From the NCBI GenBank assembly GCA_944391115.1, contig CALXSJ010000002.1, positions 124,001 through 188,000 of the forward strand: DNA of 64,000 bases, given 5' to 3'. The notes beneath the pieces are model-generated. The model worked only from the letters and a program-made list of their open reading frames with translations. It had not been told where the DNA came from and made no database searches. The DNA comes from an uncultured Victivallales bacterium (GTDB lineage Bacteria; Verrucomicrobiota; Lentisphaeria; Victivallales; UBA1829). A program made the position numbers and the translations under genes. Shown in pieces: positions 25,970 to 27,966 of the stretch. The stretch's first letter is position 1; each line of letters opens with the position of its first letter.

Positions 25970-27118
25970 TCATTGCTTGTATTCCCTGCTGATGAACACC
26001 CGTTCCACGCGGGTCCCCAGCGAACAGATCACGTCATACGGATGCGTTCCCTTGAGCTGCGCCCAGTTTTCCACGGGAACTGCGTGCATGCCTTCGCCTC
26101 CGAGACAGATCACTTCCTCCCCCGGGAGAACCTCGCCTTCCCCGAACTGTTCCAGCGAGACCGTCGTATAATCCATGGAAAGACGTCCCAGGATCGGGCA
26201 GAGGCGGTCCCGGATGACGACGTAGCCGCGGTTGGAGAGGTTCAGGGGAAGTCCGTCGGCATAGCCCGCGCAGATCGTTCCGACGCGGGTGTCCTTGACG
26301 AGACGGCAGGTGCCGCCGTAGCCGATCGTATGTCCCGCCGGCATGTTCCGCACGGCGACGACGCGGGTTTTCAGCGTCAGGATCGACTTCAGGTCCAGAA
26401 TCCGCTGTCCCTCGCTGTCAAACGAACCGTGCAGGTTGATTCCCGTCCTGACGTAGTTGAACGGATAGCGGTAGGAGAAGGGACAGTTGTTGATCCCGTC
26501 GCTGTTCGCCATGTGAATTTTCCGGAAGTGAATTCCTTTTTCCCGCATGGCGTCCAGGATCCGGTAGAAGCGGTCCGCCTGGCGCGTGCTGAAATTGTCC
26601 TCTCCGCGGTAGGCCACGGGAAAATGCGAATAGATGCCGCAGCAGTCCAGATTCGGAAGGCGCATCACTTCAGGAATGAGCGCAATGGCGTCTTTCGCAA
26701 GAATTCCGAGGCGCCCCATGCCGGTGTCTATCTTGAAATGGCATTCGGCGGTTCTGCCTTGCCTGACCGCTTCGGCGCTGATTTTTTTCGCTGTTTCCAT
26801 GTCGGTGATGCCCAGAATCACGCCGTTTTCAACGGCGGGCGGGATCTCGTAATCCAGCACGCCGCCGAGAATCTGCACGGGTTTGCCGAAGCGGACCAGC
26901 GGCAGCGCCTCCTTGAGTTCCGCCACGCAGAACCCCGCGGCGCCTGCGCGGTTCAGCCGTTCCGCGATTTGCTCCACGCCGAGTCCGTAAGCGTTTGCCT
27001 TCAGAACGGCAAGCACTTTTGCCGGATCGACCGCTTTTCTGATTTTGTTGAAGTTCTCCTCCAGCGTGTCCAGATTGACTTCGACCCAGACACGGCTGCG
27101 TATTCTGCTGCTGTCCAT
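25970..27118 (-). CDS. alr: Alanine racemase
   Basis: Interconverts L- and D-alanine for peptidoglycan. 382 residues of fold-type III PLP enzyme: Schiff-base lysine in 'VLAVLKANAYGLG' (about residue 39), 'IDTGMGRLG', 'MANSDGI', and the C-terminal domain with 'TIGYGGTCRLVKDTRVGTICAGYADGLP' holding the catalytic tyrosine. Start at 27118 ('MDSSRIRSRVWVEVNLDTLE') matches the normal family beginning; the frame is open 79 codons further but without similarity. A weak AGGG lies upstream. Confidence 0.95.
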   Translation of the reverse strand: MDSSRIRSRVWVEVNLDTLEENFNKIRKAVDPAKVLAVLKANAYGLGVEQIAERLNRAGAAGFCVAELKEALPLVRFGKPVQILGGVLDYEIPPAVENGVILGITDMETAKKISAEAVRQGRTAECHFKIDTGMGRLGILAKDAIALIPEVMRLPNLDCCGIYSHFPVAYRGEDNFSTRQADRFYRILDAMREKGIHFRKIHMANSDGINNCPFSYRYPFNYVRTGINLHGSFDSEGQRILDLKSILTLKTRVVAVRNMPAGHTIGYGGTCRLVKDTRVGTICAGYADGLPLNLSNRGYVVIRDRLCPILGRLSMDYTTVSLEQFGEGEVLPGEEVICLGGEGMHAVPVENWAQLKGTHPYDVICSLGTRVERVFISREYKQ

Positions 27119-27396
27119 GATTTTCGCATCCCTTGAAGATTCGGTTCCGCAAACGTTGTCACGGGAATATAATCCGTTTTTGGAGAAATGCACACGGGAA
27201 AAGGACGGTCCGGCGGAAAATTGGCGGAAAAAAAGAACTTTCCCGCGCGGAAATCTCCGGAAGCCGACGCATTGACGTCCCCGCGGGACATCCTGCGGAA
27301 GAGAGAATCGGAAGATCTCCGGAACCGGGATTGAAATCCGCGGAAACTCTGCCATATTACCGGAGAAACGGCATACGGCCGGGAAGGCGGGCGGAC

Positions 27397-27966
27397 ATGA
27401 AACGGCAGAAAGGATTCACAGTCGTGACGGTGACGGATATCGGATGCGAACCGCGCATTCCGAAAGGGGCGCGCCTGCTCTGCTCCGGAGAGATCAAACC
27501 GGAAAACGGGGATTACGTGCTTGTCGGGCGCGGCGGTGCGCCGCCGATCATCCGCGGTTATTTCCTCCGGGAGGACGGGTCCGTGCTTCTGCGTTCATTC
27601 AACCGGGATGCCGACAGTTACACCGCGACTGCGGAAAGTCTGGCGGCCGCCGGACTTCTGGTCGCTGTGCGGATGGAGTGCGATTTCCCCGCCGCGTCAC
27701 GGGCCGGAGAGCTTCCGGGCGCAGGCGCGTCCACGCCTGTGGAAGAACGAAATCCGTTGAATTCCGTTCCGGCGGATTCGCCGCAGGAACTTCTGACATT
27801 CGAGGAAGCGCAGGCCCTGCTGAAGGTCCGGCGGACGAAAATGTATGCTCTGCTTCGTTCCGGGGAACTGCGTGCGTCCAAGATCGGAAAGCTCTGGCGG
27901 GTCGAACGCGCTTCGATCCGGGAATATCTGGCTGGAAAAACCTATCACGGCAGCTCCGGGAACTGA
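27397..27966 (+). CDS. S24 (LexA)-like domain fused to excisionase-type HTH
   Basis: A 189-residue two-domain protein. Residues about 8-75 follow the S24/LexA dimerisation-protease pattern ('DIGCEPRIPKGARLLCSGEIKPENGDYVLV', then 'IIRGYFLREDGSVLLRSFN'), but the catalytic Ser-Met is Gly16-Cys17 and the catalytic Lys is replaced (Arg53), so self-cleavage is not expected. A Pro/Ala linker leads to an excisionase/MerR-like helix-turn-helix (about 136-185, 'LLTFEEAQALLKVRRTKMYALLRSGEL' and 'IREYLAGK'). The order is the reverse of LexA-type repressors, where DNA binding comes first. Start at 27397, with AAGGCGG upstream. A DNA-binding role is likely; target unknown. Confidence 0.75.
   Translation: MKRQKGFTVVTVTDIGCEPRIPKGARLLCSGEIKPENGDYVLVGRGGAPPIIRGYFLREDGSVLLRSFNRDADSYTATAESLAAAGLLVAVRMECDFPAASRAGELPGAGASTPVEERNPLNSVPADSPQELLTFEEAQALLKVRRTKMYALLRSGELRASKIGKLWRVERASIREYLAGKTYHGSSGN

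Follow-up and report, generated by a model that had tools for sequence, protein, structure and literature searches.

A conserved Victivallales gene encodes a reversed fusion of an S24 domain lacking its catalytic residues and an excisionase-type helix-turn-helix

The gene at positions 27397 to 27966 on the plus strand of the window, the whole stretch of 64,000 nucleotides that was analyzed, encodes a protein of 189 residues (27397 to 27963, with the stop codon at 27964 to 27966) in which an S24 domain of the LexA/CI kind precedes a helix-turn-helix (HTH) of the excisionase kind. It is a real, conserved gene and not a chance reading frame. The protein is probably a chromosomal transcription regulator that self-cleavage cannot switch off, with the S24 part serving as an oligomerization module that perhaps also binds a ligand. 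S24 domains are known as self-cutting switches; this lineage appears to have kept the fold, lost its chemistry and placed it before a different DNA-binding domain, which would make the fold a purely structural or sensing module. Our searches of the open-licence literature turned up no earlier description of such a protein.

The original prediction had the LexA/CI order reversed in this protein, with the S24 part first and an excisionase-type HTH last, and the arrangement was borne out by Pfam and by structure alignment. Pfam placed Peptidase_S24 at residues 4 to 83 (E value of 8.7e-5) with 22.7 bits, slightly below the curated cutoff of 23.3, and the match reached 24.3 bits, above that cutoff, in a six-frame search of the genome itself; the S24 relationship proposed for residues 8 to 75 stood. 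The HTH passed both of its cutoffs, with 49.3 bits against 27 for Pfam HTH_17 (PF12728) at residues 132 to 180 and 38.3 bits against 28.8 for the NCBIfam family "excise" (TIGR01764). Among solved structures, C domains of lambda CI came closest in a sequence comparison, with a weak match (E value of 0.17).

An AlphaFold2 model was built from 12 orthologues (mean pLDDT of 73.8 and pTM of 0.47, weak at residues 106 to 129). In this model, residues 1 to 97 (27397 to 27687) are predicted to adopt the S24 fold of the LexA/CI C domain, aligning with the C domain of Mycobacterium tuberculosis LexA at a Z of 10.8 (rmsd of 2.3, 91 residues aligned), and the C domains of LexA, CI and UmuD all aligned with modeled residues 1 to 101 (Z of 8.5 to 10.8, about 90 residues). 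Residues 129 to 183 (27781 to 27945) are predicted to form a winged HTH of the excisionase/BldC type; the Xis of phage Pukovnik (4j2n) aligned with them at a Z of 8.3 (rmsd of 2.2, 53 residues), and HTHs of the Xis/BldC type matched modeled residues 128 to 184 or so with Z values up to 8.3. The best Foldseek match to the model had an E value of 0.017, with none at 0.001 or less. The linker between the domains, about residues 98 to 128 (27688 to 27780), was modeled with low confidence and is fast evolving. Since the start codon is conserved among the orthologues, the protein truly starts at the S24 domain, without a preceding cleavage-site segment. The MerR family is defined by a coiled-coil dimerization helix behind the HTH; the protein described here stops 6 residues past its last helix (residues 171 to 183) and has no such helix.

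When the protein was aligned with 11 HTH-S24 proteins from its own order, the Ser column was occupied by Gly16 and the Lys column by Arg53, exactly the replacements that had been predicted. The reference proteins retained the Ser in 9 of 11 cases and the Lys in 10 of 11. Across the 13 full-length orthologues (12 read from the alignment and one, G060, judged by eye), residue 16 was Gly in seven, Ala in four and Val in two, and residue 53 was Arg in all 13. The protein accordingly has the fold and the profile match of peptidase family S24 without its catalytic Ser and Lys, and it has neither the HTH-then-S24 order nor the cleavage-site segment ahead of S24 that mark LexA and CI. From these residues, the fusion protein should not cut itself. 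Because Arg never varies at the Lys position, the relic S24 groove may do more than the dimerization alone that the original prediction expected. The genome's only other HTH-S24 protein (G000:C8; L146, 3618 to 4325), which has the normal domain order, also carries Ala for Ser and Arg for Lys. At another locus, a 553-residue protein (L093, 49 to 1710, minus strand) was seen by eye to have an N-terminal S24/S26-like domain with a Ser-Met motif kept and a long unassigned remainder, and its gene adjoins one resembling an HPr-kinase-type protein.

A profile search found the fusion in 14 of the 137 genomes of the order, full length in 13 and cut by a contig end in one (G024), where the HTH alone is visible. 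There was one copy per genome, and the carriers made up the whole of four genera: g1, which comprises the window's own genome (G000) and G001 to G003 (4/4), g7 (3/3), g8 (3/3) and g10 (4/4). These four belong to one Victivallales family, whose other genera were without the fusion. Altogether, 49 of the 137 genomes matched the profile at an E value of 0.001 or better, 35 of them in one part only; an earlier search had matched 17 of 41 near relatives. A sample of the phylum (387 genomes) gave 22 matches at 1e-9, consisting of 11 fusions (G024 included) and 11 matches to the C-terminal part, with no full-length relative outside the four genera. Among 28 loci in named records, 12 were of the fusion kind (11 near full length and one cut) and the other 16 matched the C-terminal part; the titles of those 12 records read Victivallales, Lentisphaeria or Lentisphaerae in 11 cases and "uncultured bacterium" in one. 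None of the matches in viral (4 loci), phage (1 record) or plasmid (14 records) collections reached 80% of the query, and those with ranges listed covered the C-terminal part. The same kind of HTH was also seen by eye at the N terminus of proteins of about 222 to 233 residues that resemble PTS EIIA fusions (L014 and L015).

Pairwise dN/dS values, for seven pairs among the 10 full-length sequences other than G012, G019 and G060, were 0.03 to 0.25 in the S24 domain (six measurable of seven pairs, one saturated), 0.02 to 0.14 in the HTH (seven pairs) and 0.10 to 1.03 in the linker (five measurable of seven pairs, two saturated). Both domains are under purifying selection and the linker is looser, and the low values in both domains indicate that the protein serves a function. 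Trees of the gene (12 rows) and of the MurB-Ddl protein (21 rows) both separated g1 and g8 from g7 and g10. Horizontal transfer was rejected on this shared deep split, since descent with losses suffices.

In the window, the divergent neighbor across a gap of 278 bp is alr (25973 to 27118, minus strand), which encodes alanine racemase and is a candidate target; here and in G001, the fusion gene is divergent from alr and convergent with cca. In g7 and g10, a gene for a MurB-Ddl fusion lies immediately upstream on the same strand of all six intact copies, at gaps of 10 to 62 bp (G022, G016, G009, G019, G012 and, from coordinates only, G060; the G022 and G019 proteins were checked with Pfam). In g8 (G010, G017 and G023), the gene lies behind a gene like those for DUF523/2-thiouracil desulfurases and an rsmI-like methylase gene, as judged from Pfam on the G010 proteins and, for G023, from upstream sequence. 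In G002 it is flanked by gdhA and the gene of a solute-binding protein, and in G003 by a polysaccharide lyase gene and a maltose-acetyltransferase-like (hexapeptide) gene; an acetyltransferase gene resembling the latter also adjoins the G019 and G024 copies. No neighbor was constant among the contexts compared, and two of the five kinds of context were D-alanine genes. As a separate observation, a single protein of about 620 residues combines MurB with D-Ala-D-Ala ligase across the family, with matches in 33 of 36 genomes (L025, 5243 to 7102; L027, 5712 to 7562; and L152 to L181; two proteins confirmed by Pfam).

The surroundings are those of a host chromosome. Among ten neighboring proteins scanned with Pfam, eight gave housekeeping-type or MarR matches and two gave none; none was phage-like, as had been predicted, and none was an integrase. 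The chromosomal, single-copy gene agrees with the host regulator that the original prediction had envisaged. A defense system was rejected, as PADLOC returned no match. The suggestion that the target might be alr or cca survived in part. Both cca and alr adjoin the gene in just this species and its closest relative. This leaves cca without support, and it was dropped as a target; alr gained indirectly, since the gene comes straight after murB-ddl in six other genomes, making a D-alanine link possible.

A probable promoter, TTGAAA-N18-TATTAC, is located at 27331 to 27361 (plus strand). The stretch AAACTCTGCCATATTACC (27344 to 27361) was kept with zero to two mismatches before the gene in all four g1 species; it accompanies the gene in all three of the upstream settings seen there and therefore marks the gene's own promoter. 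In the four g1 genomes it had 17 matches, four before the fusion gene and 13 elsewhere with two or three mismatches. Nine of these 13 were inspected and lay inside other coding frames or where such frames begin, three of them, by eye, at the start of a thrS-like gene, and control counts were 0, 2, 3 and 7. A regulon based on this stretch was rejected.

In all three g8 genomes, which are close relatives, two 13-bp repeats with a period of 20 bp (two helical turns) lie directly upstream of the −35 box, in a block conserved against diverged flanks. The repeats are alike at 11 or 12 of 13 bases, a level seen in 2, 11 and 2 of 2000 simulations for the three genomes at a fixed period of 20, and, less strikingly, in 4, 26 and 3 of 200 with no fixed period. 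The pair, allowing up to three mismatches, occurred once per genome, against none in the control. No tandem repeat beyond simulation preceded the gene in g1, where the best was reached by 119 to 199 of 200 simulations. The single g8 box gave 50 hits against 38 in the control, 18 against 19, and 38 against 14 in the three genomes, near control in one and above it in two. Among 12 inspected single-box loci (at most one mismatch), only two pairs shared proteins. In one pair the proteins are orthologues with 82% identity, and the box falls within an ABC-transporter frame; in the other they share 32% identity. No clear regulon emerged from the single box in the three genomes. Sought at 11 loci of alr and 12 of murB-ddl, one of which lacked upstream DNA, the box gave only chance-like matches with two to five mismatches. 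The tandem repeat upstream of the g8 promoter suggests autoregulation, and with repeats at its own promoter, no convincing box at alr or murB-ddl and no clear regulon, autoregulation is the best-supported action that we infer for the protein.

Next, we considered how a regulator of this build might act. LexA, CI and UmuD each dimerize through the S24 domain. By analogy, the S24 domain here would join two subunits, the flexible linker would let their two HTH domains occupy direct repeats, and the protein would bind its own promoter, as best seen at the g8 repeats. For targets beyond its own promoter, the strongest candidates are alr and murB-ddl, both of them D-alanine genes. That the protein is a regulator of D-alanine or peptidoglycan precursors, acting on alr in this genome and on murB-ddl in other genera, is nevertheless a doubtful proposition: divergence from alr in two genomes and the position behind murB-ddl in every intact g7/g10 copy speak for it, and two such contexts among five kinds would be unlikely at random positions (on the order of 1% by our own rough estimate), but 5 of the 13 full-length copies (three in g8, G002 and G003) lie elsewhere, murB-ddl also occurs in genomes without the regulator, and matches to the g8 box before alr and murB-ddl look like chance. 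More speculatively, and rather improbably, the dead S24 groove with its invariant Arg could hold, without cleaving it, either a short peptide or a peptidoglycan precursor that contains D-alanine, gripped by its carboxylate end, and signal to the HTH, which would set the expression of D-alanine and murein genes. If so, the protein would be LexA's pseudo-protease counterpart and would read the cell wall rather than DNA damage. With its single copy and strongly conserved HTH, the protein lends itself to a direct test of what it targets.

A prophage-repressor origin of the S24 domain is plausible: its profile scored best with HTH-S24 proteins of the order (up to 28.9 bits), against 19.0 bits or less for LexA/UmuD-type loci. 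It is unlikely that the protein is a domesticated repressor part with a remaining action on mobile elements, for instance through S24 pairing with intact prophage HTH-S24 repressors. One of these HTH-S24 proteins (L133) adjoins genes resembling phage early genes by eye, yet the window's genome has no intact HTH-S24 repressor with which to pair, its only other one having lost the catalytic pair as well, and phage-like genes among the scanned neighbors and full-length relatives in the viral, phage and plasmid collections were lacking. In two relatives (L132, 2838 to 4445; L133, 1083 to 4019), an intact HTH-S24 repressor gene stands opposite small divergent genes in a phage-switch-like layout, and in one of these regions a divergent gene encodes a 55-residue excisionase-type HTH. 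Far less probable is a role in the SOS response, with the regulator inactivated, as LexA is, through cleavage stimulated by RecA. The S24 fold would suit it, and LexA-HTH matches in the window's genus are weak (about 26 bits, compared with 42 to 62 in most other family members), as they are in G012, so that these genomes may be without LexA; the reading is already contradicted by the loss of Ser and Lys in all 13 copies and by the missing cleavage-site segment. Replacement of LexA in general was rejected, because g7, g8 and g10 carry the fusion and include genomes with strong LexA matches. Equally improbable is a decaying relic without function, which the lost catalytic residues and the sister genera lacking the gene might suggest, but which the dN/dS values and full-length copies free of internal stop codons contradict.

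The preferred reading, a regulator with a noncleaving S24 module, was compared with known systems. LexA, lambda CI and UmuD share the modeled S24 fold (Z of 10.8 to 8.5 over about 90 residues), whereas here S24 comes first, the Ser-Lys pair and cleavage segment are absent and the HTH is of another type. The HTH-S24 repressors of the same order (L130 to L143) have the nearest S24 domains found, but carry the HTH first and mostly retain the catalytic residues, as counted above. Excisionase-type HTH proteins such as Pukovnik Xis resemble the C-terminal domain in profile and modeled structure; here that HTH is fused behind S24 and encoded by a chromosomal, single-copy gene with no integrase among the scanned neighbors. 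BldC has a related HTH (Z of 7.2 for 6ama and 6.7 for 6amk against the model) and binds direct repeats head to tail (PMC5859096). BldC differs in having 68 residues and oligomerizing via its HTH on 9-bp repeats, whereas the candidate repeats here have a period of 20 bp. IrvR of Streptococcus mutans is similar by description, as a LexA-like regulator outside the RecA rule (PMC7101444). Judged from sequence, the reversed, apparently noncleavable S24-HTH arrangement is a variant of the known S24 regulators, found here only in four genera.
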